From assembly GCA_007571225.1 (NCBI GenBank), contig RKRU01000094.1, positions 1 through 10,241 on the forward strand: a stretch of 10,241 nt of DNA, given 5' to 3'. Numbering within the stretch: the stretch's first letter is position 1; each line of letters begins with the position of its first letter. Below are positions 1-10,241 of the stretch, one piece after another. Made by a program: the position numbers and the translations under genes. The notes below the pieces were generated by a model, which did no database searches, was not told the DNA's origin, and was given only the letters and a program-made list of their open reading frames with translations. This DNA comes from Nitrosopumilaceae archaeon (GTDB lineage: Archaea > Thermoproteota > Nitrososphaeria > Nitrososphaerales > Nitrosopumilaceae).

Positions 1-105
1 GCGCATTACAGAAATTGCCCGCATGATCCCATATTAAAGCCATGCCTTCAAAACGGAGAATTATATACATAAATTCATACCATGCCTGCCAGTGTAACCG
101 TTTAC

Positions 106-162
106 GTCCCCACTGCCTGAATGACCGATTCTAGACATAAATTTGGCAAATTGTTTACACTA
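106..162 (+). repeat. Decayed copy of the dispersed MITE-like repeat
   Basis: This stretch aligns without gaps to positions 3198-3254 of the full-length repeat at 3108-3363, in the same orientation. By eye, about 35 of 57 bases match. In the last 27 bases (136-162) every one of the 7 differences is a C/T or G/A transition, the pattern expected of an old copy decaying by deamination. The beginning of the copy may reach back to about base 6, where TTACAGAA resembles the repeat terminus, but that part is weak. It lies upstream of the Rieske gene. I see no gene in 1-293. Confidence 0.5.
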
Positions 163-172
163 GACGTAAACA
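152..172. promoter_or_regulatory. Palindromic site TGTTTAC-N7-GTAAACA
   Basis: Two perfect 7-base inverted arms (152-158 and 166-172) are separated by 7 bases, about 100 bp before the predicted Rieske transcription start. The related word GTTTACGTC also occurs at 99-107. The spacing would suit a dimeric winged-helix regulator. However, the left arm lies inside the decayed repeat copy, so the symmetry could be inherited from that repeat. Regulatory function is an inference only. Confidence 0.3.
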
Positions 173-261
173 GTTACTGTGATATGCATGGTTTGCTTTT
201 TTGGATGAGATTGGTCTTTTAGCGGCAAAAGAGCTGGGACTGCGCCCTCATTACGTGTAAG

Positions 262-269
262 TCTAAATA
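262..269 (+). promoter_or_regulatory. TATA-like box for the Rieske gene
   Basis: TCTAAATA is centred at about 265.5. Archaeal transcription usually begins about 27 bases after the centre of the TATA box, here near 292-293. That places the first in-frame GTG (294) at or next to the 5' end of the mRNA, giving a leaderless transcript. It argues against the ATG at 276, which lies only 7 bases beyond the box. Confidence 0.45.
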
Positions 270-293
270 CCGTACATGCGTGGCATAATCATC

Positions 294-596
294 GTGGTGT
301 GGAAGAAGATTGCCAAGAAGGGCGCCGTGGCTCCCGGAAAAGGAAGGGCATTTACCGTTGAAGGCAGGCAGATTGCACTGTTCAACCAGGATGGATACCA
401 TGCCATTGACGACCTGTGCGTGCACCAGGATGGTTCCATTGCCCCCGGCGAGCTTGATGGCGATATAGTAGAGTGTCCGCTGCACTTTTGGCACTACAAC
501 ATAAAGACCGGCGAGCTTACCGACTACCTCAAGGATGTCAAGCTGCAGACGTATCCTGTGGATGTAAGGGACGACGGCATCTACATAGATGCCTGA
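294..596 (+). CDS. Rieske [2Fe-2S] ferredoxin (NirD / dioxygenase-ferredoxin type)
   Basis: A small soluble electron carrier of about 100 residues with one Rieske fold. The cluster ligands are visible as two boxes, CVH and, 16 residues later, CPLH, so two Cys and two His bind a [2Fe-2S] cluster. There is no signal peptide or membrane anchor, so it should act in the cytoplasm, passing electrons to an oxygenase or reductase that is not in this window. The size is that of NirD-like and biphenyl-dioxygenase-type ferredoxins. I chose GTG 294 because a TATA-like box lies about 28 bases upstream and the protein then begins MVWKKIAK; an in-frame ATG at 276 would add six residues (MRGIII). It appears monocistronic: a minisatellite and a separate promoter region divide it from nadE. 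Family is secure from the motif; the partner is unknown. Confidence 0.88.
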   Translation: MVWKKIAKKGAVAPGKGRAFTVEGRQIALFNQDGYHAIDDLCVHQDGSIAPGELDGDIVECPLHFWHYNIKTGELTDYLKDVKLQTYPVDVRDDGIYIDA

Positions 597-614
597 CGCC
601 TGCGTGGATGCGCA

Positions 615-691
615 CGCAGCAACACACACACACGCAGCAACACACACACACGCAGCAACACACACACACGCAGCAACACACACACGCAGCA
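615..691 (+). repeat. 18-bp minisatellite (CGCAGC + CA-rich tail)
   Basis: The word CGCAGC recurs at 615, 633, 651, 669 and 685. Three units are exactly 18 bp (CGCAGCAACACACACACA) and the fourth is 16 bp, missing one CA. The array begins 18 bp after the Rieske stop codon and ends 75 bp before the nadE start. Long open frames across it on both strands (translating as CVCVAA or QQHTHT runs) are by-products of the repeat. Strand slippage could change the copy number. Confidence 0.95.
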
Positions 692-733
692 GACTCTTGC
701 TTGTAGCACAAAGAAAATGACGTCAATCATAAC

Positions 734-750
734 CTTTATTCTGATATATA
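734..750 (+). promoter_or_regulatory. Candidate TATA boxes for nadE
   Basis: Two A/T-rich boxes precede the TTG start at 766. CTTTATT (734-740) is centred 29 bases upstream and would give a leaderless transcript. GATATATA (743-750) is closer to consensus, but its predicted start site falls a few bases inside the gene. I favour the first box if the TTG start is right. Confidence 0.35.
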
Positions 751-765
751 CACACACAAATCCTG

Positions 766-1587
766 TTGAATCCAGACATCATATCTGAGATTACATCCCA
801 AGATTATGCGGCCATTACAGGACGCATACGCAGGTTCATTACGGCACAACTTGACCGTTCCAGTACCAAGGGGCTCGTACTGGGGCTGAGCGGGGGGATA
901 GACTCGGCCGTTCTGGCATATCTGTGCCGTACCGAGGATCTTCTTGGACGGACGCTTGCCCTGATAATGCCCGATACTAGGGTTACGCCAGATTCGGAGA
1001 CTGCAGACGCGCAGAAGATAATATCAATTTTGGGTATGCAGTACAAGCTGATAGACATAAACCCGATAGTGCGCGAGTATACCATGTACCTAGAGCCTAG
1101 TGCCACTGCAAGGGCCAACCTCAGCGCAAGGGTAAGATCCGACATACTGTACTATTACGCAAACGCAAAAGACTACCTTGTCCTAGGCTCAAGTGACAGA
1201 AGCGAGTACTTGATGGGATATTTTACAAAATACGGGGACGGGGCCTCTGACCTGATGCCCATTACATCGCTGTACAAGCTGCAGGTGCGCAAGCTGGCAG
1301 AACACCTAGAGGTACCTGAAGATATAATATCAAAGAAGAGCAGCCCGCACCTGCGCAAGGGCGACGTGGCAGAAGATGAACTGGGAGCATCATACGAGGA
1401 GATAGACTCTATACTATGGTGCATGATTGAGAAGGGCATGTCTGCCTCGGAGGCTGCCAGAGCCGCCCAGACTGACATGGAGACGGCAGAGCGCATCGGC
1501 CGCATGTACACGTCAAGTATGCACAAGAGGACAGTTCCTGCAACTGAGTCGGGACTGTCCTTTGGAGGTGGAACCGTCATACAATGA
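766..1587 (+). CDS. nadE: NH3-dependent NAD+ synthetase
   Basis: Catalyses the last step of NAD biosynthesis, amidation of nicotinic acid adenine dinucleotide using ATP and ammonia. The 273-residue length matches the single-domain, ammonia-dependent form; no glutaminase (nitrilase) domain is present. The ATP-pyrophosphatase P-loop SGGIDSA is at residues 42-48. GSSDRSEYLMGYFTKYGDG and the ELGASYEEID segment match the conserved substrate-binding and C-terminal regions of the family. The start is TTG at 766; no in-frame ATG exists before residue 90, which would already be past the P-loop, and a TATA-like box sits about 29 bases upstream. The last bases overlap the cysS start as ATGA (1584-1587), so translation of the two is probably coupled. 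Identification is firm from the motifs; only the start is uncertain. Confidence 0.95.
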   Translation: MNPDIISEITSQDYAAITGRIRRFITAQLDRSSTKGLVLGLSGGIDSAVLAYLCRTEDLLGRTLALIMPDTRVTPDSETADAQKIISILGMQYKLIDINPIVREYTMYLEPSATARANLSARVRSDILYYYANAKDYLVLGSSDRSEYLMGYFTKYGDGASDLMPITSLYKLQVRKLAEHLEVPEDIISKKSSPHLRKGDVAEDELGASYEEIDSILWCMIEKGMSASEAARAAQTDMETAERIGRMYTSSMHKRTVPATESGLSFGGGTVIQ

Positions 1588-3053
1588 CTGTACTGTTCGA
1601 TACACTCTCCGGCAGGAAGATTGATCCTGTGCGGCCTGGCAGCAGTACAGTAGGGATCTACCTGTGCGGCGTTACTGTATATGATGATGTGCATATAGGA
1701 CACGCCCGTACGATAGTGGTCTTTGATGTACTGAGAAACCATCTTGAGCGCACAGGCGGCCTCAGCGTGCGCATGGTACAGAACTTTACCGATGTGGATG
1801 ATAAGATTATTGCACGCGCCCGTGCAGAGGATACAACGGCCGCTGCAATAAGCGGCAGATACATCAACAGGTATCATGACGAGCTGAACCGCCTTGGAGT
1901 CCAGCGCGCAGATGTATATCCAAGGGCCACCGAACACATCGGCGACATGATACACTTCATCGAGGATCTCGTGCGCAAGGGGGTGGCGTACAGATCCGAA
2001 AACGGGGTGTACTTTGCAGTCTCTAAGTTTCCTCGGTATGGCGCGCTCTCAAAGAAGAGAACAGATGATCTTCAGCTGGGCGCCCGGGTGGAGGTTGATG
2101 AGACAAAGGAGAACCCGCTTGACTTTGCTCTATGGAAGTTTGCTAGCGACGAGCCCACATGGGACAGCCCTTGGGGGGCGGGCAGGCCGGGATGGCACAT
2201 AGAGTGTTCTGCGATGAGCACAAGATACTTGGGCGGCGATACAATTGACGTACACGGCGGGGGCCGCGACTTGATATTTCCCCACCACGAAAACGAGATA
2301 GCACAGTCCGAATCCCGTATGGACGGGGAGTTTGCCCGCATATGGATGCATGTCGGGATGGTCACCATACAGGGGGAGAAGATGTCAAAGTCCCTTGGCA
2401 ACATAAGGACACTAAATAAGGTACTGCACGACTGGGGCGCCAATGTGATACGACTGTTCTGCCTGTCGGGCCATTATTCAAAACCCATCGACTATTCAGA
2501 AGAGAACCTGAGCGAGAGTCTGGCAAGATGGAGACAGATCGAGGCGTGTAGTTGCGAGCTTGCACATGCGGCGCGCAAGGGCGCCCTAGGAGACGACGCG
2601 TATGACAAAGCGGTAGCGGCGACTGATAATGATGATAATGATAATGATAATGATAATGATGTATCTGATACCGGCGCCGAGTTTGACTGGGCGCTGGATC
2701 ATGACCTCAACACGCACCTTGCACTTGTGGCCCTGATGAGACTGGTATCGGATACAAACAACAAGATAGCAGGCGGGACGCTGAACGCCGGTTGGGCCTC
2801 AAGGGCGGGAGCCGAGTTGTCAAGGATGACAGGCGTGCTGGGCTTGACAATTCCTGAGATGACCGAAGAGTACTGCATGTCCATAGATGCCATAGTTGCC
2901 GAGCGCAACACGCTGCGAATGAACAGGGAGTACAAGAGGGCAGATGAGATAAGAGACAGGCTTGCCGCACAAAACATAGAGATACTTGACCGCGGCGGGG
3001 GCGAGACTGTCTGGATCAGGCGGGAACCGGTATGCGGTGATGCGGGCAGCTAG
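1584..3053 (+). CDS. cysS: Cysteinyl-tRNA synthetase
   Basis: Class I aminoacyl-tRNA synthetase that charges tRNA-Cys. At 489 residues it has the usual length. The HIGH signature is at residues 37-40 and KMSKS at 266-270. The zinc site that selects cysteine is complete, with C28, C208, H234 and E238 (in HHENE) at positions matching the known bacterial site. The C-terminal helical region begins after about residue 365 and ends near KRADEIRDRL, typical of the DALR/anticodon-binding part. Odd feature: residues 348-359 are a D/N run encoded by GATAAT microsatellite repeats, in the linker before that helical domain. Translation starts inside the nadE stop (ATGA overlap), implying one mRNA. A MITE-like repeat begins 54 bp after the stop, and a short hairpin (3078-3094) lies between. 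Confidence 0.97.
   Translation: MTVLFDTLSGRKIDPVRPGSSTVGIYLCGVTVYDDVHIGHARTIVVFDVLRNHLERTGGLSVRMVQNFTDVDDKIIARARAEDTTAAAISGRYINRYHDELNRLGVQRADVYPRATEHIGDMIHFIEDLVRKGVAYRSENGVYFAVSKFPRYGALSKKRTDDLQLGARVEVDETKENPLDFALWKFASDEPTWDSPWGAGRPGWHIECSAMSTRYLGGDTIDVHGGGRDLIFPHHENEIAQSESRMDGEFARIWMHVGMVTIQGEKMSKSLGNIRTLNKVLHDWGANVIRLFCLSGHYSKPIDYSEENLSESLARWRQIEACSCELAHAARKGALGDDAYDKAVAATDNDDNDNDNDNDVSDTGAEFDWALDHDLNTHLALVALMRLVSDTNNKIAGGTLNAGWASRAGAELSRMTGVLGLTIPEMTEEYCMSIDAIVAERNTLRMNREYKRADEIRDRLAAQNIEILDRGGGETVWIRREPVCGDAGS
2625..2660 (+). repeat. In-frame (GATAAT)n microsatellite inside cysS
   Basis: Five GATAAT hexamers plus two GAT trinucleotides encode codons 348-359 of CysS, reading as alternating Asp and Asn. 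Because the unit is 6 bp, gain or loss of units leaves the frame intact and changes only the length of an acidic linker. A 16-base core, AATGATGATAATGATA (2628-2643), recurs outside the gene at 6374-6389 (reverse complement), and 15 bases of it recur twice in the array at the window end. Confidence 0.95.
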
Positions 3054-3107
3054 GCAAGTTATGTGGTGGTGGCAGTCCATGCCGGTATGGCATGCTGTGG
3101 GACCTGT

Positions 3108-3363
3108 GGTTCTCTACAGAATACATGTGCTGGCCAATCCCGGATAATATCGGTTCGCAAGGATTGCCCGCTTTACAGTCACCCGGCAGCCTCCTAGGTC
3201 CCCTATGTACAAACAACTAATCCCGTGCACAAATTCGGCAGGTTGTCTACGCCAAGATTGTATTGCAGATTAGGATCCGCCATATTTTTTGACAAGGTCA
3301 TTGAGTCAGGCTGGGCCCGTCTTCTAGATAACCCTGGCCGGCATCAGCATTCTGGATAGAACT
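3108..3363 (+). repeat. MITE-like repeat, left copy (256 bp)
   Basis: This block is the reverse complement of 5141-5393 over its whole length. I estimate about three-quarters identity by eye, with perfect stretches such as AGACAACCTGCCGAATT. It is bounded by imperfect 28-base terminal inverted repeats: the left begins GGTTCTCTACAGAAT at 3108, and the right (on the complement) begins AGTTCTATCCAGAAT at 3363, with 20 of 28 matching. No frame is kept open between the two copies, so it looks non-coding and non-autonomous. No clear target-site duplication is visible. It fills the space between the convergent cysS and the 507-residue gene, whose stop codon directly abuts base 3363. Confidence 0.85.
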
Positions 3364-4887
3364 TCAGAGAGAACCATCTGCATGGGAAAAAAATTTTTCG
3401 AACCCTTCACGGAAAGAATTAGACGACTTTGGTTCATAATTGGAGAGAATATACTCTGATAACTGCTGTGAGTTCCTGAGCGCAAGTCGCAGGCCTGGAT
3501 CTACGCACTTTTCTCCCCTTAGAAGTTTTGTTGTGTCTTGTAGTACTGTATCAAACTGATTTCTCAATACACAACTGTGCAGTTTTAGCAGTTGATGGGA
3601 CCTGTATAGCATCCACGCCTGTTTGTGTCTGGTTGTACGTGCATACCAATTTGTCATATGGGCGGCTATCTCAGAAGCACTTGTGTGAACTAGGTAGTCG
3701 TCGTGGGATTTGGGTATGTTGCCATGATATACTGGGCCGCCCCTATAATCTAGGTTGTCATAATTTACGAGGCCGCCCTTGTAATCCAGACCACGTTCAT
3801 CAAACATGTCGTGGTGCCGCATCTGTACTCCTTCCTGATCTTCCTCTTTTATCAAATACTCTCTCAAAGTTCCATCGTCATCATAGTAGGTCTGCAGGAT
3901 GTGCTGGAGTATAATACACCCGTCCTCAATCATGGTCATGATGCGGGAATCCCTAAATGTCACTGCAGGATCAAGTGTTGGTATTTTCTCTAGTACAGCA
4001 CTAAACTTCTCACTTAGTATGGATACATACAAGTCGTCTAGCACCCCGCTACCTTCATTGGGCTTTCTTGGCATGTCTCCGGTCTTGTACCAGTACCAGT
4101 CTGCCAAAAAAAACAGGGACTTGGCGGCTTCATGACAGTCGTCATGGTATATTTTGTCCAGTATTATGGCATACTGCGTCTGTGCGGTAAAATACAGGTA
4201 TACAAGGTTCAGTCCTGTCATCTTGCGAATGTGCCTGTATATGCCGTTTATCTTTTGGTAGTTTTCCATATTTCTCACATTATTAAAATAATCACATTCA
4301 GTATCAGGCAGAACTGCCGTCGATATCCTGTTATACACTACAAAGGATTTGGGACGTATCGACGAGGTGATCCCCGTAAGGGTTGCGCTAAGACTGCAGC
4401 CTGCCGCAGATACAAATTTGCCCAGCCCCTCAACAAGTACACCATATGTACAGTCGGATATAAACACCTCAAGCAGATCCAAGAACGCCGTCTTGTTTTT
4501 GGGATCCTCCAGCTCGGGCACCCTGTTCATACCCGCAAAGCTCCCATGCGTGGCCAGTCTTGTTATGCGGTTTTTCAAGTCATGGTCCATCTGCGGAAGG
4601 CGCCCCAATATCGTTTCCAGATGTCTCTTTTTTAGACGCGACCAGTTCAATATGTTAAGATATGCGTTAATCATGTCTTGGTAGGACTTGTTGTTCCTCT
4701 CAAATGCATCTCTGTTCTTTATTACATATTTGGTAAACAGCCTAGTCGCCCTGCTTGTATTTACAAACTCATCTATGGAATTCTCATCGGGAACTGTTCT
4801 GGAAAGTATTGAAGTCAGACTGAGCACGGCATGACGGGGGTAGCCACGCGCAGGCCCTTTAGAGTGGTGTATGTCCGTCTTTTCCAA
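3364..4887 (-). CDS. Uncharacterised 507-residue protein between inverted repeats
   Basis: I do not recognise this protein. It looks soluble and largely helical, with no signal peptide or obvious membrane segment. The first half is rich in charged helices. A central segment (GLGKFVSAAGCSLSATLTG, then KSFVVYNRIS) faintly recalls helical domains in defence-type proteins where a glycine/serine motif precedes P-x-x-F-x-V/I-Y-N; this is a memory of a pattern, not a homology claim. Residues about 365-389 hold a 12-residue tandem duplication (GLDYKGGLVNYD then NLDYRGGPVYHG, a 36-bp DNA duplication). The start is TTG at 4887, chosen because a TATA box lies 28 bases upstream; no in-frame ATG precedes it. 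The TGA stop touches the left MITE copy. Long uninterrupted frame, a promoter and sensible composition argue that it is a real gene; lower G+C suggests foreign origin. Confidence 0.75.
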   Translation of the reverse strand: MEKTDIHHSKGPARGYPRHAVLSLTSILSRTVPDENSIDEFVNTSRATRLFTKYVIKNRDAFERNNKSYQDMINAYLNILNWSRLKKRHLETILGRLPQMDHDLKNRITRLATHGSFAGMNRVPELEDPKNKTAFLDLLEVFISDCTYGVLVEGLGKFVSAAGCSLSATLTGITSSIRPKSFVVYNRISTAVLPDTECDYFNNVRNMENYQKINGIYRHIRKMTGLNLVYLYFTAQTQYAIILDKIYHDDCHEAAKSLFFLADWYWYKTGDMPRKPNEGSGVLDDLYVSILSEKFSAVLEKIPTLDPAVTFRDSRIMTMIEDGCIILQHILQTYYDDDGTLREYLIKEEDQEGVQMRHHDMFDERGLDYKGGLVNYDNLDYRGGPVYHGNIPKSHDDYLVHTSASEIAAHMTNWYARTTRHKQAWMLYRSHQLLKLHSCVLRNQFDTVLQDTTKLLRGEKCVDPGLRLALRNSQQLSEYILSNYEPKSSNSFREGFEKFFSHADGSL

Positions 4888-4910
4888 CTGTTGATATTTG
4901 TGGTGTGCAT

Positions 4911-4920
4911 TTTATAAATT
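4911..4920 (-). promoter_or_regulatory. TATA box of the 507-residue gene
   Basis: On the minus strand this reads AATTTATAAA, close to the archaeal TATA consensus, centred 28 bases before the TTG at 4887. Transcription would begin at or next to that TTG, giving a leaderless mRNA. This is the strongest promoter-like element in the window and is the reason for accepting the TTG start. Confidence 0.6.
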
Positions 4921-5040
4921 TAATAGGCTGGGCGGTGGTATGATCCTGCCTGCCTGCTGCATGGATGTGACGGCCTTGTAGTCCTTCTGGGCATGAGGAA
5001 ATGCGCCCGTGGGTCAAATTTTGTCAATAAATCTTCTCCC

Positions 5041-5060
5041 AGATTCCACGCGTGGGATCT
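5041..5060. promoter_or_regulatory. 20-bp near-perfect palindrome, possible operator
   Basis: AGATTCCACGCGTGGGATCT is self-complementary apart from one base pair, with the inner ten bases CCACGCGTGG perfect. It lies 154 bp upstream of the orphan gene start and about 80 bp before the right MITE. Such symmetry fits a dimeric DNA-binding protein or a restriction/recombination site. The distance from the promoter is long for simple repression, so function is open. Confidence 0.35.
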
Positions 5061-5140
5061 TCGACATGGGCTTGTTGGCAGCAGTTTCAGTCTGGGTTTG
5101 GGCCTGGAGGCGGGTAATCTGTAGAATCTGTGCGGGGATC

Positions 5141-5393
5141 GGTTCTATACAGAATGCGGATACTGGCCGGGGTTCTAAAATACGGGCCCAACCGGCCTCA
5201 TAATGGCCTTCAAAAAATACGGCGGATCCTGATCTGTAATGTAGTCTCGATGCAGACAACCTGCCGAATTCATGCCCGGGATCAGTTATCTGGATATGGG
5301 GGACCCAGACGGCTGCGGGGTGTCTATACGTGGGTAATCTTTACGAGCCGATATTGTCTGAGACTGGCCAGCACCAGTATTCTGGAGGGAACC
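5141..5393 (-). repeat. MITE-like repeat, right copy (253 bp, inverted)
   Basis: Reverse-complement partner of 3108-3363. Termini are GGTTCTATACAGAAT (5141) and, on the complement, GGTTCCCTCCAGAAT (5393), matching at 21 of 28 positions over the terminal inverted repeats. The conserved interior includes AGACAACCTGCCGAATT and GGCGGATCCT. It lies between the divergently transcribed orphan gene and the chlorite-dismutase-like gene. Small indels relative to the left copy break every reading frame, so it is treated as non-coding. Confidence 0.85.
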
Positions 5394-5512
5394 GGTGCAT
5401 AATCCCTGCAGCCGTGGCGGGTCAGGCGTTTATGGTCAGGCCGGCTGCGCAACAACTTTTCCCGTACGCGAGATTATGGTACTGGGGTAATGATTATCCT
5501 ACTGTTGCCATG

Positions 5513-5522
5513 CTTTTTAAGG
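5513..5522 (+). promoter_or_regulatory. TATA-like box for the chlorite-dismutase-like gene
   Basis: CTTTTTAAGG is centred about 32 bases before the TTG at 5549. The predicted transcription start near 5544 would leave a leader of only about five bases, in keeping with the leaderless style of the other genes here. Confidence 0.4.
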
Positions 5523-5548
5523 CCTTGTTGTTACTACCGATGTAGGAT

Positions 5549-6220
5549 TTGAAGCAACTACCACAATACTACTTTGGATTCTCCTTCTTCAAGCTTGACT
5601 CAAAGTGGAGATGGATGTCTGATCTTGCAAAAGAAGAGTCGGCCAAGGAGGTGGATAATGTCCTGAGACAGACCCGCATAATGTACCGCTCATACTCAAA
5701 CGTCGGAATTCGTGACGATACTGACTTTCTGCTGTGGTTTGCAGCGCCCGCAGTGGATGACATCCAGCGTGCAGTGGAGAAGCTGTACACGACCGTATTT
5801 GGCAAGTATGTGGTTCCTTCTAGGACGTATCTGTCGTGTACGCGCCCCTCGGCATATGCGCCGAGTTCTGCGCCTCAGGGATTCATAGCAGGAGACGAGC
5901 CCAAGCGGTACGTAATAGTATATCCGTTTACCAAAACCCGGGAGTGGTATCTGCTGCCGCAGGAGTCGCGGCAGAAGATAATGGACGAGCATATCGCAGT
6001 CAGCAGGATGTATCCACAGATCATCCTCAATACGACATACTCGTTTGGCATTCACGACGAGGACTTTATGCTCGCCTTTGAGGTGGACAACATACGGGAC
6101 TTTCAGGATCTGATAATGGATTTGAGGGAGACGGAGGTATCATCATACGTGCAAAACGACATTCCAATGATCGTGTGCATCAAAAAGGAGATAGTGCCTC
6201 TGATACTTAGCATGGGATGA
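5549..6220 (+). CDS. Chlorite-dismutase/HemQ-superfamily heme protein
   Basis: A 223-residue member of the family that includes chlorite dismutase and coproheme decarboxylase (HemQ/ChdC). It starts LPQYYFGFSFFKLDSKWRWM, as archaeal members do. Family landmarks are YPFTKTREWYL (Y125 and K129 align with the coproheme-binding Tyr and Lys of HemQ), the proximal heme-ligand His at H148 in DEHI, and TTYSFGIHDEDFMLAFE. The distal residue, 13 positions after the proximal His (Arg in chlorite dismutases, Gln in Firmicute HemQ), is Asn161. True chlorite dismutase activity is therefore unlikely; coproheme decarboxylation or another heme-dependent role fits better but is not proven. The start is TTG 5549 with a TATA-like box just upstream. 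A nearby AhbAB gene supports a link to heme synthesis. It ends inside the arm of an inverted repeat (6211-6217). Confidence 0.88.
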   Translation: MKQLPQYYFGFSFFKLDSKWRWMSDLAKEESAKEVDNVLRQTRIMYRSYSNVGIRDDTDFLLWFAAPAVDDIQRAVEKLYTTVFGKYVVPSRTYLSCTRPSAYAPSSAPQGFIAGDEPKRYVIVYPFTKTREWYLLPQESRQKIMDEHIAVSRMYPQIILNTTYSFGIHDEDFMLAFEVDNIRDFQDLIMDLRETEVSSYVQNDIPMIVCIKKEIVPLILSMG

Positions 6221-6367
6221 TCCGTATACTCCACACCATCCATCTCAGATGAGAGTTCTCTCCAGAATACAAATGCTGGTTAGTTTATTTTTGGCTACTC
6301 CGTATAGCCTAAAAGCTCAATTACTGCCGCAGAGTGGTGTGGAGTGACAAAAGTAGCATATCCCATG
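6211..6367. repeat. Nested inverted repeat between cld-like gene and transposase
   Basis: Outer arms CATGGGA (6211-6217) and TCCCATG (6361-6367) are perfect complements. Inner arms ACTCCACACCA (6228-6238) and TGGTGTGGAGT (6335-6345) are also perfect complements over 11 bases. Together they bracket about 157 bp containing a solo end of the MITE-like repeat and a T-rich stretch (6283-6293). It may be a very small non-autonomous element, or a structure acting between two convergent genes. The left outer arm overlaps the stop codon of the upstream gene. Confidence 0.6.
6254..6281 (+). repeat. Solo terminus of the MITE-like repeat
   Basis: Matches the 28-base terminal inverted repeat starting at 3108 at 22 of 28 positions, including AGTTCTCT and CAGAATACA. 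The sequence after it does not resemble the interior of the full copies, and no opposite end was found up to 7474. It is either a remnant or the end of a different element sharing termini, possibly the one that encoded the neighbouring transposase. Confidence 0.5.
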
Positions 6368-6394
6368 TTTAGGTATCATTATCATCATTCCTGT

Positions 6395-7105
6395 CTACTT
6401 GGTGTGTTTGTTCTGTTTTTCAGATTCCTCTTCTCTCTCTAAGGTCTCCCTGTCGGGTGCCATCTTGCGCACAAAGGCCTTTGCAGGCGTCTCTATATTC
6501 TCAAAGTCAAGTGACCGGTGGGGCCGTTCGTTGTTGTACCACTGTATAAAGCGCTCTACTGGGTCCGTCCTGCTCTTTGTATGGAATGGACCTCCCACAT
6601 GATAGTTTTCAGGCTCCCTTCCAGGCGCCACCTGCTCAAAAAAGTGAAGTTTTCTCTGCAGTTCGCCGTGGAACCTCTTCAGCTTGCCGCTTGCCTGCGG
6701 ATGCCCCGTGCGGGTCAGTACATGTTTTATGCCCAACCGTTTCAACTCTTTCTCAAACGGGGCCTCTTCACTCTCCGTGTCGCCTTTTTTGTTTGAATGG
6801 GACAGGAGATCATGATCTGCAAGTATAGATACGGGTTTGCCGTATTGGGCAATTGCCTTGTGCAGTACATCAATTGCGTGTTGTACAGTATCGTCTTCAA
6901 ATACACCATACCCGGTTATCAGACGCGAGGCGTCATCCTCATATGATATAAAGTACCTACCATCGGGTAGAACTTTGTAGTCAGTATGCCACATTGAGTT
7001 TGAGTATCTCCGCTCAGATTTTACCCACCTGCGCTTGGTGGGCTGTCCCCCCGAAGGCTCTTGTGGTGTGACGGAAAATGCAATATCATCCTGTTTTGGC
7101 ATCAT
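6395..7105 (-). CDS. Degenerate rve-family (DDE) transposase, catalytic Glu lost
   Basis: Integrase-core transposase of the IS481-like type common in ammonia-oxidising archaea. The 236 residues contain the first catalytic Asp in WHTDYK (D42) and the second in ILADHDLL (D97). In the third motif, where the family has GK(L/I)ER, the sequence is GKLKRFHGE, so the catalytic Glu is Lys143. The C-terminal part has the usual YNNERPHRSL and ETPAKAF. The N-terminal helix-turn-helix region expected of a 300-350-residue enzyme is missing; an in-frame TAA lies 10 bases upstream of the ATG (7115-7117). It is probably inactive. A second, internally deleted copy lies immediately upstream in the same orientation. 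Family call is solid; inactivity is inferred from the missing Glu and the truncation. Confidence 0.85.
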   Translation of the reverse strand: MMPKQDDIAFSVTPQEPSGGQPTKRRWVKSERRYSNSMWHTDYKVLPDGRYFISYEDDASRLITGYGVFEDDTVQHAIDVLHKAIAQYGKPVSILADHDLLSHSNKKGDTESEEAPFEKELKRLGIKHVLTRTGHPQASGKLKRFHGELQRKLHFFEQVAPGREPENYHVGGPFHTKSRTDPVERFIQWYNNERPHRSLDFENIETPAKAFVRKMAPDRETLEREEESEKQNKHTK

Positions 7106-7122
7106 CGTTCTTGTTTAGCCTC

Positions 7123-7292
7123 CTTGGTATGTTTGTTTAGGTTTTTCGATTACTCCTCTTCAAATACACCACCATGTCCGGTTATTACATGCGAGGTGAC
7201 GTCATTCTAGTATGATGTAAAGTACTTGCAGTCTGGCAGACCTCTAATCGATATGCCCAATTGAGTTTGAGTGCTTGTGCCCAAACCTTGCA
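7123..7292 (-). pseudogene. Internally deleted transposase copy
   Basis: Read on the minus strand, part of 7156-7290 translates as DCKYFTSY*NDVTSHVITG then HGGVFEE, clearly matching DGRYFISYEDDASRLITG and YGVFEDD of the neighbouring transposase, but with a stop codon, insertions and a frameshift upstream (HSNSIGHID against YSNSMWHTD). It then jumps directly to the C-terminal tail: EE*SKNLNKHTK (7123-7159) against EEESEKQNKHTK. About 150 residues of the catalytic core, including the second Asp and the third motif, are therefore deleted. It lies 17 bp upstream of the longer copy's start. No function as a protein is possible. Confidence 0.85.
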
Positions 7293-7442
7293 GTAAGAGA
7301 TTATCCGGTTATGTCAGGGCCGCATACAGATGATCAACAAATGACTCGAATCCGTCTTCTGCCGGTAAAATTACATCTATATGAATGGATTATTAAACCC
7401 GCCAATTTTTGGACGGGGTTGTCATGCCCGGCAGGTTAAAAA

Positions 7443-7470
7443 ACATAAATCACAAGCCTGATTCAGAGGT
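7443..7470 (+). promoter_or_regulatory. TATA-like box and Shine-Dalgarno for the aldo/keto reductase
   Basis: ACATAAAT (7443-7450) is centred 28 bases before ATG 7475, consistent with a leaderless start there. AGAGGT (7465-7470) would also serve as a ribosome-binding site at short spacing. A second TATA-like box, TTATTAAA (7390-7397), could give a longer leader or a start at ATG 7424. All but the last favour ATG 7475. The rest of 7293-7442 holds nothing I recognise. Confidence 0.4.
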
Positions 7471-7474
7471 AGAC

Positions 7475-8467
7475 ATGCGATATCACAAACTGGGCAAGAC
7501 CGGAATTGAGGTATCCGAACTGGGATTTGGAGCGTGGTCCATTGCGCTTGACTGGTGGGGCAAGAAGATCGAGGAGGATGAGGCCCTGCGCATGCTCAGA
7601 AGGGCATATGATGTGGGGATTAACTTTTTTGAGACTGGGGACATGTACGGCAAGGGCAAAAGTGAGCGGCTTATTGGAAGGGCCTTTGCAGGCATGCGCG
7701 ACGAGGTTGTAATATCTACCAAGTACGGATACGACTTTGCAGGCGTAGAACAGATAGGCCACAGCGAACTGCCGCAGCGGTTTGATGAGGACTTTACCAA
7801 AAGGGCTCTAAGGGACAGCTTGGAGAGGCTGCAGACTGATCATCTCGACATGTACGGGTTGCACAATCCAAAATTAGGCCACATCCGGGACGACTCAATA
7901 TTTGAGACGCTGGATGGATTCCTCAGGGCCGGTACCATACGGACATGCCAGGTGGCGCTCGGCCCTGCAATAGGCTGGACTGACGAGGGGCTGGAGGCAA
8001 TGGAGAGGCCCTGCGTGGGCGCAGTCCAGACTGTATACAACATACTAGAGCAGACACCGGGCAACGAGCTGCTGCGCAGGGCAGCAGACAGGGGTGTGGG
8101 AATACTGGTCCGGGTGCCCGAGGCTTCTGGCATACTGACTGGCAAGGTGAATGCGGATACCAAGATTGATCAGAAAGATCACCGGTCCGTAAGAAAGGGA
8201 GAGTGGATAAAGGCGTCCCTACAGAAGGTAGAGGAGATCAGGCCCATAGCCGAGAGAAACGGCCTGACCATAAGGGAACTTGCAATGAAGTTCATAATGA
8301 CCAAGCAGGGGTTTGCATCCGTTCTTCCTACCGTAACAGACGAGGACGAGATTGTTCAGTATGCCGAGATGTGCGACGGCAGATACATATCTGCATCGGA
8401 TATGGAGGAGATAGACGGCCTGTACAGTACGTGGCCGTCGTACGAGTTAAAGGCCACCTTGGAGTAG
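7475..8467 (+). CDS. Aldo/keto reductase
   Basis: An NAD(P)H-dependent oxidoreductase of the AKR superfamily with a TIM-barrel fold, 330 residues from ATG 7475. It opens MRYHKLGKTGIEVSELGFG, the usual AKR N-terminus, which is why I prefer this start over an in-frame TTG at 7409 or ATG at 7424. The catalytic positions are Y58 (in ETGDMYG), K83 (in ISTKYG) and H130 (in DMYGLHNP). The acidic member of the tetrad, normally Asp in DTAxxYG, is Glu53 here. The C-terminal SVLPTVTDEDEI lies where the cofactor-binding loop is expected. Substrate cannot be read from the sequence. The next gene starts 22 bp downstream and is probably co-transcribed. Upstream is transposase debris. Confidence 0.93.
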   Translation: MRYHKLGKTGIEVSELGFGAWSIALDWWGKKIEEDEALRMLRRAYDVGINFFETGDMYGKGKSERLIGRAFAGMRDEVVISTKYGYDFAGVEQIGHSELPQRFDEDFTKRALRDSLERLQTDHLDMYGLHNPKLGHIRDDSIFETLDGFLRAGTIRTCQVALGPAIGWTDEGLEAMERPCVGAVQTVYNILEQTPGNELLRRAADRGVGILVRVPEASGILTGKVNADTKIDQKDHRSVRKGEWIKASLQKVEEIRPIAERNGLTIRELAMKFIMTKQGFASVLPTVTDEDEIVQYAEMCDGRYISASDMEEIDGLYSTWPSYELKATLE

Positions 8468-8488
8468 TAGACTGGAGGGCTGTCGGGT

Positions 8489-8821
8489 GTGAAGAGGCGC
8501 ATAATGCTTGACGTGATTGAGAAGATGAGCGGCGCCAACATAGGCGACCGGAAGATGTGGGGAAAGATGACAAGGAAGATCAAATCTGATACTCCACTGA
8601 ATCCTGCGGAGTTGGAATACTATACAAGGCTGACACGCATATACAGCAACCCGGCATATACGGCGCAAACAGTCCGGGGCCGGAACTACCATACGCGGCT
8701 CTCCGAACACGACGATAAGCCGCGGTGCGCCGAATGCGAAAACGACTCTGAATACTATTGCAACATGAACGATCAGTACTTCTGCCAGCTGCACGTGGCA
8801 GGACACGACAGTAATGAGTAG
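8489..8821 (+). CDS. Small Cys/His protein, B-box-like zinc-binding C-terminus
   Basis: A 110-residue protein I cannot name. The N-terminal two-thirds are basic and hydrophilic. The C-terminus has regularly spaced metal ligands, C-x2-C-x7-C-x7-C-x2-H-x3-H (CAEC, YYC, FCQLH, AGH), resembling a compact zinc finger of the B-box kind, although one spacing differs from the classic pattern. Start is GTG 8489, preceded by GGAGGG (8474-8479) at suitable spacing; an ATG five codons on is an alternative. It follows the aldo/keto reductase by 22 bp on the same strand, so the two probably share an mRNA. It converges with ahbAB. Possible roles include nucleic-acid or protein binding; this is inference from the ligand pattern alone. 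Confidence 0.75.
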   Translation: MKRRIMLDVIEKMSGANIGDRKMWGKMTRKIKSDTPLNPAELEYYTRLTRIYSNPAYTAQTVRGRNYHTRLSEHDDKPRCAECENDSEYYCNMNDQYFCQLHVAGHDSNE

Positions 8822-8889
8822 TGGATGCGGTTATGGCATACGGTGACCGGTTGCCTGCATGAGCTGTCAGGATGCCGTGTGAGGCGCGG

Positions 8890-9927
8890 CTACTGCCCTA
8901 CGCCGACTATGACCTCTTTCTCCTTTAGGGTAAACTCGCTCTCTACAAAATACTCTACGCGCGTCTTTTTAAACTCGCGCAGGCTGAAAAGTATCTTATA
9001 GTCGTCAACTGCTATCTGTCTCTGAATTGTATCTGCCATCTCACGTGCCTCCTGCCTACTCTTGCAGTGGATCATCGAAAATACGTTGTAGGGCCAGTCC
9101 TGATAAGTGGGACGCTCATAGCAGTGGCTTACCTGTGGGAACGCGCCGAGCTTCTCGCCCACCTCAGTTATTCTGTTATCGGGGACCTTCCATACGATCA
9201 TACCGTTTGCAGAGAAACCGGCCTGCCTGTGTCGGAGTATGGCTGCAAACCTTCTCATTATGCCGTCCTTTTCGTAGCGCCTCATGACCTTGAACAGCTC
9301 CTCTTCTGTCGTACCTAGCCGGCTGGCTGCTGCAACAAACGGCTCGTCTACAAACTCCATGTCCTTTTGCAGTTCACGAATGAACTCCTTGTCGCGCTCG
9401 GTGGGATTAAATTTTACATCATTCTTATTTGCACTCTTCTTCTTCTCTTCGGTGGGGGCCACCTCGTGTTTTTTCTCCTCGACCATCTCAAGCCTCACCC
9501 CGATCTTGAACAGCTGCAACGTGGGTAGCATGCGTACCCTGCGTATTCCTTCTAGTCTGTCGAACTTATCTAGTTCGTCGTTTAAGTTTGAACCGGGCGG
9601 AACCGCAAGCGTAAACCACAGGTTAAACTCGTGGTCGCGCTCATAGTTGTGGCTTACGCCTGGATGTCTGTTGATCTGTCCTGCTATGTAATCAAGCCGT
9701 CGGGGTTCTATGTCCATTGCCACAAGCGAGCTGGTATATCCAAGTTTGCGCGTGTCAAATATGGCACTCAACTGCCTGAGTATGCCTGATGTTCTGAGCT
9801 TGTTTAGGCGCCCCTTTACCTCTTTTGCTGGAATGCCAAACTTTTGCGCCATTGCATCAAAGGGGCGCGTAACCAGCGGAAACGTCCACTGAATCTCATT
9901 GAGCAGTTCCTTGTCCATGTCGTCCAT
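8890..9927 (-). CDS. ahbAB: Fused siroheme decarboxylase AhbA-AhbB
   Basis: Two Lrp/AsnC-like siroheme decarboxylase units in one 345-residue chain. The complex converts siroheme to 12,18-didecarboxysiroheme, the first committed step of the alternative heme pathway; the family also includes NirD/L/G/H of heme d1 synthesis. Half one has a winged helix (residues 1-60) and the AhbA-type motif VSHNYERDHEFNLWFTL (91-107). A charged linker (about 150-170, EEKKHEV...KKKSANK) joins half two, which has a second winged helix (about 175-230) and the AhbB motif VSHCYERPTYQDWPYN (266-281). I chose ATG 9927 because a TATA-like box is centred 26 bases upstream and the family begins about there; the open frame continues to 10110, but the extra 61 residues overlap a decayed repeat and match nothing. 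The Lrp-like look can cause mislabelling as a transcription regulator. Confidence 0.92.
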   Translation of the reverse strand: MDDMDKELLNEIQWTFPLVTRPFDAMAQKFGIPAKEVKGRLNKLRTSGILRQLSAIFDTRKLGYTSSLVAMDIEPRRLDYIAGQINRHPGVSHNYERDHEFNLWFTLAVPPGSNLNDELDKFDRLEGIRRVRMLPTLQLFKIGVRLEMVEEKKHEVAPTEEKKKSANKNDVKFNPTERDKEFIRELQKDMEFVDEPFVAAASRLGTTEEELFKVMRRYEKDGIMRRFAAILRHRQAGFSANGMIVWKVPDNRITEVGEKLGAFPQVSHCYERPTYQDWPYNVFSMIHCKSRQEAREMADTIQRQIAVDDYKILFSLREFKKTRVEYFVESEFTLKEKEVIVGVGQ

Positions 9928-9948
9928 ACGCGTCTGATGCCCGCGCTC

Positions 9949-9956
9949 AATTAAAA
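9949..9956 (-). promoter_or_regulatory. TATA-like box for ahbAB
   Basis: Reads TTTTAATT on the minus strand and is centred about 26 bases before ATG 9927, placing transcription start at that ATG. This supports a leaderless mRNA and rules against the longer frame that opens at 10110. Confidence 0.5.
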
Positions 9957-10056
9957 GTGTATGATACTTGGTGTATGCGGCTTTGACGCGGCAGGAGAGG
10001 CCCCACCACTTACTTTCCGCCGCATCCAAGACGAGATGCAGCCTGCGCGGCTCAAG

Positions 10057-10127
10057 CGTCACTGTACAGTCATAATGACAGGTCCCCTGAGTACAAATAA
10101 CTGATCCCATACGGCAGATCGTTTACG
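10057..10127 (+). repeat. Second decayed copy of the MITE-like repeat
   Basis: Aligned to the left full copy in the same orientation. On the complement, GGGATCAGTTATTTGTAC corresponds to GGGATTAGTTGTTTGTAC, followed by AGGGGACCT in both. ACTGTACAGTC (10061-10071) corresponds to the interior CTTTACAGTC. GACGTAAACGATCTGCCG on the complement corresponds to GGCGTAGACAACCTGCCG, after an apparent 8-base deletion. No termini are recognisable. It lies just upstream of ahbAB. Confidence 0.5.
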
Positions 10128-10170
10128 TCTGACCCAGACGGTTTTGTACTATCGGTCTTGTGCCGTATGG
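10107..10170. other. 10-bp inverted repeat enclosing a hairpin
   Basis: CCATACGGCA (10107-10116) and TGCCGTATGG (10161-10170) are perfect complements 44 bases apart. Between them, CGTCTG-ACC-CAGACG (10126-10140) is a perfect 6-bp hairpin followed by GTTTTG. The nested symmetry suggests a structured element or a small insertion remnant upstream of ahbAB. No plus-strand gene ends here, so a terminator role is not obvious. Confidence 0.5.
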
Positions 10171-10172
10171 TA

Positions 10173-10241
10173 CAGATGATGATACAACGCAGATGATGAT
10201 AATGATACAACGCAGATGATGATAATGATACAACGCAGATG
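10173..10241 (+). repeat. 23-bp tandem repeat running off the window
   Basis: CAACGCAG recurs at 10185, 10208 and 10231, giving an exact 23-bp period. The first unit is 6 bp shorter, missing one GATAAT-type hexamer, so variation is by hexamer steps. The array is not complete: it continues past base 10241. Each full unit contains the 15-base word ATGATGATAATGATA also seen in cysS and at 6374-6388. Confidence 0.92.

Follow-up and report, generated by a model that had tools for sequence, protein, structure and literature searches.

A lineage-specific MITE-like repeat family and an orphan gene between two of its copies at the junction of two gene blocks in a Nitrosopumilaceae archaeon

The locus described here lies on contig C11 (RKRU01000094.1) of assembly GCA_007571225.1, from a Nitrosopumilaceae archaeon; the term window denotes the whole stretch of DNA that was analysed, positions 1-10,241 of this contig. 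The assembly of this genome (G000) comprises 1.29 Mb in 214 contigs and is 69% complete (31% missing). The G+C content of the window is 50%, which suggests that the host is of the sponge-associated type: seven of 11 sponge-associated thaumarchaea have values of 47-67% (PMC7848895). The same source reports far more transposases in some sponge-associated thaumarchaea than in free-living ones, for which one count gives 0-3 transposases per genome, soil Nitrosotenuis excepted (PMC7848895). The features of the window that bear on this study are as follows:

276..3053, plus strand: conserved block Rieske protein, nadE and cysS, ending just left of the segment
3108..3363, plus strand: left copy (W1) of the M1 repeat, type A, with imperfect terminal inverted repeats GGTTCTCTACAGAATAC.. 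/ ..GCATTCTGGATAGAACT
3364..4887, minus strand: orphan gene of 507 codons with a TTG start; its stop end at 3364 adjoins the W1 end at 3363
4911..4925, no strand assigned: putative TATA-box-like stretch, TTTATAAATTTAATA, proposed from the sequence and located upstream of the TTG start at a distance of 24-38 bases
5041..5060, no strand assigned: 20-base near-palindrome AGATTCCACGCGTGGGATCT, pairing at 18 of 20 positions, between the gene start and W2
5141..5393, minus strand: right copy (W2) of the M1 repeat, type A, inverted relative to W1 and its sister in the tree
5549..10110, plus strand (regulator minus): conserved block of a cld-like gene, an aldo/keto reductase (akr), a 110-aa protein and an AsnC/Lrp-type regulator (lrp), interrupted by 6254-7105
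6254..6284, plus strand: M1-type terminus standing alone, with cld on one side and a truncated IS481-like transposase gene on the other; absent from the sequence-only reading

The sequence-only reading of this DNA had described two inverted blocks at about three-quarters identity, bounded by imperfect termini of the GGTTCT type, with a longest shared perfect run of about 17 bases and a single enclosed gene whose stop codon touches the left copy, and this description was borne out. Comparison of the entire blocks W1 and W2 by BLASTN gave 78% identity (E 3.3e-51), and a mechanical repeat search recovered inverted arms at 3108-3169/5332-5393 (81% complementary) and 3174-3292/5210-5328 (79% complementary). 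The terminus GGTTCTNTCCAGAATAC is present at all four block ends (3108+, 3363-, 5141+ and 5393-) with one or two mismatches each. The longest perfect run common to both copies, read from the alignment, has 17 bases (AATTCGGCAGGTTGTCT). W1 and W2 share no ORF, and neither contains a transposase ORF. Other repeats occur in the window as well. An 18-base tandem repeat (CACGCAGCAACACACACA) lies at 595-690, directly after the Rieske gene, and a GATAAT-type microsatellite within cysS (2624-2670) codes for a DN-rich stretch and is found again at 6373-6388 and 10175-10241.

The gene between the two copies is present in the databases as model P0001, with an identical end and a start 20 codons later than the TTG. 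The sole relative that we found is a 497-codon gene on contig C202 of the same genome, which is 27% identical to it across 462 positions (E 1e-35, valid for this one comparison); judged from this similarity, the orphan gene is a member of a real protein family together with its C202 relative. No relatives were detected in 150 other genomes of the taxonomic family, nor with a two-row profile in 399 other genomes of the class, a sample that overlaps the former. A search of 5.8 billion proteins, limited to sequences sharing exact words, returned nothing beyond the gene's own record P0001, and tblastn with the 507-aa protein against phages gave no match. The protein matched no family of Pfam, PHROGs, NCBIfam or PADLOC at E ≤ 1, the C202 paralog likewise had no Pfam match at E ≤ 1, and the AlphaFold2 model of the 507-aa protein (two-row alignment) had a mean pLDDT of 35. 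The GC content of the orphan gene is 45% vs 49-54% for nadE, cysS, cld, akr and lrp, and the correlation of its codon usage with these five genes is 0.72, the lowest among ten genes compared. The corresponding values were 0.84-0.95 for the five genes, which themselves form the reference, and 0.82, 0.81, 0.94 and 0.78 for the Rieske gene, the transposase piece, a dehydratase-like gene of C202 and the C202 paralog, all outside it. By GC content and codon usage, the gene looks like an acquired, foreign accessory gene.

Analysis of the own genome revealed that the blocks belong to a dispersed repeat family, which we call M1. Of the 36 BLASTN matches of W1 at E ≤ 1, 17 reached E ≤ 0.001, and the terminus occurs at 101 sites with up to two mismatches, vs none for the reversed control pattern; with up to one mismatch, 61 sites remain. 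One hundred of the 101 sites were listed and form 74 clusters, about one cluster per 17 kb. On the other hand, the 249 other genomes of the family together yielded 17 terminus sites with up to one mismatch (16 genomes with one or two each, 233 with none), and the reversed control at the same threshold gave six sites in five of the family genomes, so that the sites outside the own genome represent chance scatter slightly above the control. As DNA, the repeat block was matched at E ≤ 0.001 in two of 151 genomes, namely the own genome and G014. The 31-base match in G014 was considered as an M1 copy and rejected: it looks like a piece of a coding gene from an A+T-rich region, no terminus lies at that locus within four mismatches, and it was taken as chance. 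A longer exact M1 pattern was absent from species-representative genomes and viral contigs, collections that may lack this genome or its closest relatives, and plasmids searched by blastn with the left repeat gave no match. M1 is thus confined to one of 250 family genomes.

The two-ended M1 elements measure 245-304 bp and have mostly unrelated flanks; one element of 137 bp holds a copy of a second repeat, M2, and larger ones carry insertions. Three types can be distinguished, A of about 256 bp (which includes the window copies), B of about 302 bp and C of 245-249 bp; the right half is common to all three, and the left half differs in A. Type B is represented by at least ten copies that are 94-98% identical to the copy on C34 wherever their sequence is present and that are truncated by contig ends, a pattern typical of recent high-copy repeats. 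One-ended relatives, families E and F, were found in addition. Family E (L117, L129, L074, L130, L069, L118 and L125) consists of about 150 bases with an M1 terminus at the start, AATTCCC at the end in six of the seven copies printed and no second terminus; in four copies about 25 bases upstream are also in common. The sequence-only reading had called the blocks MITE-like, and the searches in the own genome and in relatives uphold that description: M1 is short, has terminal inverted repeats and no shared ORF, and occurs in dozens of dispersed copies in a single lineage. We regard M1 as a real, lineage-specific, non-coding MITE-like family that had not been described before; our search of the open-access literature returned no description of MITEs in thaumarchaeota or in a Nitrosopumilus or sponge context.

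Some M1 loci have features of their own. Contigs C70 (L165 1100-1177) and C34 (L167 2650-2726) have 77 bases in common at 83% identity next to their M1 copies. These shared bases run in the same direction on both contigs, whereas the M1 copies there are oppositely oriented; not all M1 flanks are therefore unrelated. A type B element on contig C180 (L079 1002-2672) is split by an insert of about 1.4 kb that contains a Fic-family gene. A direct repeat of some 23 bases borders this insert, and the Fic gene matched PDC-S04 (E 5e-31) and SoFic (E 6e-25) in PADLOC.

Target duplications were sought by scoring the agreement of left and right flanks against 300 shuffles. In 20 M1 elements, including W1 and W2, there was no such duplication, the best flank agreement being equalled by 61 of 300 shuffles, and a separate scan of 18-19 elements was likewise negative. 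The same scan with M2 as positive control, on 20 copies with exactly placeable ends, revealed a clear 8-bp duplication whose score was reached by none of 300 shuffles. M2 is a repeat of about 84 bp with ends GTAACTGTTTACGTC..GACGTAAACAGTTAC (GTAACTG..CAGTTAC) present at many loci of the own genome (L063, L074, L166 and others). The 8-bp duplication is perfect in six of the 20 copies, and the other 14 match at 0 to 7 of 8 positions; the match is 1 of 8 for the window copy at 94-177, and 7 of 8 for a copy that lies inside a type A M1 element (L006/L071). A single young type B copy with both flanks present showed no duplication. Among 42 pairings made from the flanks of young M1 copies, most of them cut by contig ends and perhaps not true partners, no match reached 5 bases.

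A parent transposase was sought among ORFs of 120 aa or more in the surroundings of M1 sites (130 ORFs, 113 scanned as two alignments, nine more separately and ten again singly), and none was found among the families listed (25 of 70 and 25 of 50). The only PF01609 match in the own genome was below threshold, with no M1 terminus in the surrounding locus. The IS481-like gene at 6395-7105, further pieces of which lie on C156, C70, C114 and C34, was considered as a parent and rejected: the own end of the window element falls near 6331-6337 by comparison of copies, and four copies (C11, C70, C34 and C114) end about 65 bases past the stop, with no M1 terminus there. Against this rejection, three of the five pieces are followed downstream by an M1 terminus, at distances of 0.14, 0.38 and 0.76 kb, more often than M1 density would predict. 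Together with the lone M1 terminus, the truncated gene forms the stretch 6254-7105 that splits cld from akr. By eye, the interior of a 795-bp M1 element on C139 (L007) resembles a decayed DDE transposase, and the longest open piece of this interior had no Pfam match. Part of this interior is a third repeat, X (L007 836-1032), which occurs outside M1 elements too; of the loci with X (L007, L033, L043, L063 and L124), several have it just outside M1 ends. As neither a parent transposase nor a target duplication was found, the mobility of M1 rests on copy number and defined ends.

These data bear on the way in which M1 moves. It could be REPIN-like, or depend on a single-strand or recombinase mechanism without target duplication and without a DDE transposase, an option compatible with the reading of the locus favoured below. 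The difference between 20 M1 elements devoid of a duplication signal and the perfect 8-bp duplications of M2 points in this direction, as do the young type B copy, the 42 flank pairings and the existence of one-ended M1 relatives. On the contrary, the Y1 transposase PF01797 had no match in the 69%-complete own assembly, in a search that was positive in six of 14 control genomes; the hairpin potential of the terminus is conserved only in part (at each position, 20-80% of 105 ends are paired), W1 folds no better than shuffles (z -0.49), and older M1 copies may merely have lost their duplications through age. We consider such a mechanism rather doubtful. A more specific proposal is that M1 is an archaeal paired-terminus family in some 70 or more places, spread by a duplication-free mechanism, in which several unrelated cores share one terminus as cis-elements served by an as-yet-unfound enzyme of this thaumarchaeal lineage; we hold this to be unlikely. 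The presence in one genome of M2, with 8-bp duplications, and of M1, for which none were found, would make the M1 mechanism testable once a complete genome exists.

W1 and W2 were compared with other type A copies. Their identity is 79% to each other and 66-75% to eight further type A copies or fragments; among the latter it is 77-93%. Relative to the consensus of seven other type A copies, W1 and W2 have 26 changes in common, 21 of them towards G+C, and 20 and 22 private ones. In a tree of the shared right half that includes types B and C they are sisters, with a support of 92 in IQ-TREE and 0.80 in FastTree. This sister relation is the main result against pure coincidence; two independent random insertions predict it only weakly, and a local duplication, an old sub-lineage or a partial conversion would each fit it. 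One alternative, which overlaps with the favoured reading, is that one copy begot the other by local inverted duplication, or that the two were homogenised by gene conversion, the gene being caught during the rearrangement that joined the blocks. The position in the tree, even with types B and C included, and the 26 shared changes argue for it. However, at 79% identity W1 and W2 are less alike than nearly all other type A pairs, so any exchange must be old; the changes towards G+C may in part be parallel, and an unsampled old type A sub-lineage in the missing 31% of the genome would look alike. Such a local origin is possible, and we put it forward tentatively.

The gene order of relatives gives a further view of the locus. 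The gene cysS was present in all 12 relatives searched, on the same contig as cld in five of them and then 172-645 kb apart, and cysS was not near cld in any of nine longer stretches from relatives. None of the best 80 of 198 named cld loci (66 of these 80 with at least 2.5 kb of upstream sequence) had a match to cysS, nadE, the orphan gene or M1 at E ≤ 0.001. Within the other block, the matches to cld and akr were separated by 4-598 bases in 77 of these 80 named relatives. The two blocks, Rieske-nadE-cysS and cld-akr-small protein-lrp, are thus apart in relatives, and the segment sits on a rearrangement breakpoint relative to them, so that the relatives examined offer no empty site for comparison.

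Ten adjacent M1 pairs lie within 2.5 kb of each other vs 9.9 expected from uniform scatter, and 8.1 when contig ends are respected (95% range 3-13, with 28% of simulations reaching ten; the sizes of 54 contigs were known and the others drawn at random). Two of the ten close pairs (C139 and C180) are pieces of one interrupted element. Spacing is therefore at chance level, and the bracketed gene needs no special cause.

The sequence-only reading had offered two explanations of the bracket, a gene-capturing composite element and a segment able to invert. In the first, two M1 copies would have moved the orphan gene by means of the outer ends at 3108 and 5393, with a transposase acting in trans. 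Exactly one gene lies between the copies, no relative of it was detected in the 150 other family and 399 other class genomes, and its foreign-looking composition, taken with the sister relation of W1 and W2, lends the idea slight support. On the other hand, the outer ends have no convincing direct repeat (best 4 of 7), the own genome holds no second copy of the whole segment, the two copies are as near as chance gives, relatives have a breakpoint at this place, and the C202 paralog is not closely bracketed, as the M1 elements near it lie at distances of 1.4 kb and 4.9 kb and other ORFs intervene. This explanation was not supported, and we consider it improbable. In the second, recombination between the inverted copies would flip the gene with its promoter. 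Beyond the inverted arrangement around one gene, no evidence for it emerged: identity is 78-79% with a longest perfect run of 17 bases, no site-specific recombinase was present among the nine window ORFs scanned, and, with the presumed promoter located within the segment, an inversion would not uncouple it from the gene. An invertible switch is highly improbable here.

The reading that we favour, with a probability of roughly three in four, is that W1 and W2 are old, decayed M1 copies beside an accessory gene at a breakpoint, and that repeat density, and no mobile or invertible unit, accounts for the bracket. M1 would have spread through this thaumarchaeal genome as a lineage-specific, non-coding MITE-like family, perhaps with the help of an enzyme acting in trans that the assembled 69% of the genome did not reveal. 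W1 and W2 would have landed, or arisen by local duplication, where two elsewhere distant gene blocks meet, and the repeats may have taken part in the rearrangement of these blocks. The foreign-looking accessory gene would sit at the same spot, and the density of about one terminus cluster per 17 kb would suffice to produce the bracket in the breakpoint region. For the bracket itself the result is deflating, as two M1 copies so near each other correspond to chance spacing. What emerges is a burst of small non-coding repeats, dense, lineage-specific and made up of at least two families, in an archaeon from a group whose free-living members have few transposases by one count; one repeat cluster is tied to a rearrangement breakpoint.

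Among known systems, REPIN and REP elements are moved by RAYT, and a REPIN has about 100 bp. M1 differs from them in its greater length, its weak hairpin and the lack of a Y1-type gene in the assembled genome, and resembles them in combining paired inverted termini with lone termini and in that no target duplication was seen. In MITEs, a target-site duplication is usual and not universal; it is among the features used by MITE finders according to PMC10969869, which also names Sulfolobus, Halobacterium, Haloquadratum and others as archaea with known MITEs. By the definition given in that paper, the segment differs from composite transposons in that neither flank contains a transposase and there is no sign of movement as a unit, and it is like them in that two inverted repeats flank an accessory gene (PMC10969869). 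For MITECca01 of a Cardinium endosymbiont, a parental element of the IS982 family has been identified (PMC9769881); M1 is unlike it in that no parent element and no target duplication were found. With MITECca01 and prokaryotic MITEs as described there, M1 shares a length of about 250-300 bp, terminal inverted repeats, the lack of a gene, dozens of copies and a lineage-specific spread in a repeat-rich genome (PMC9769881).
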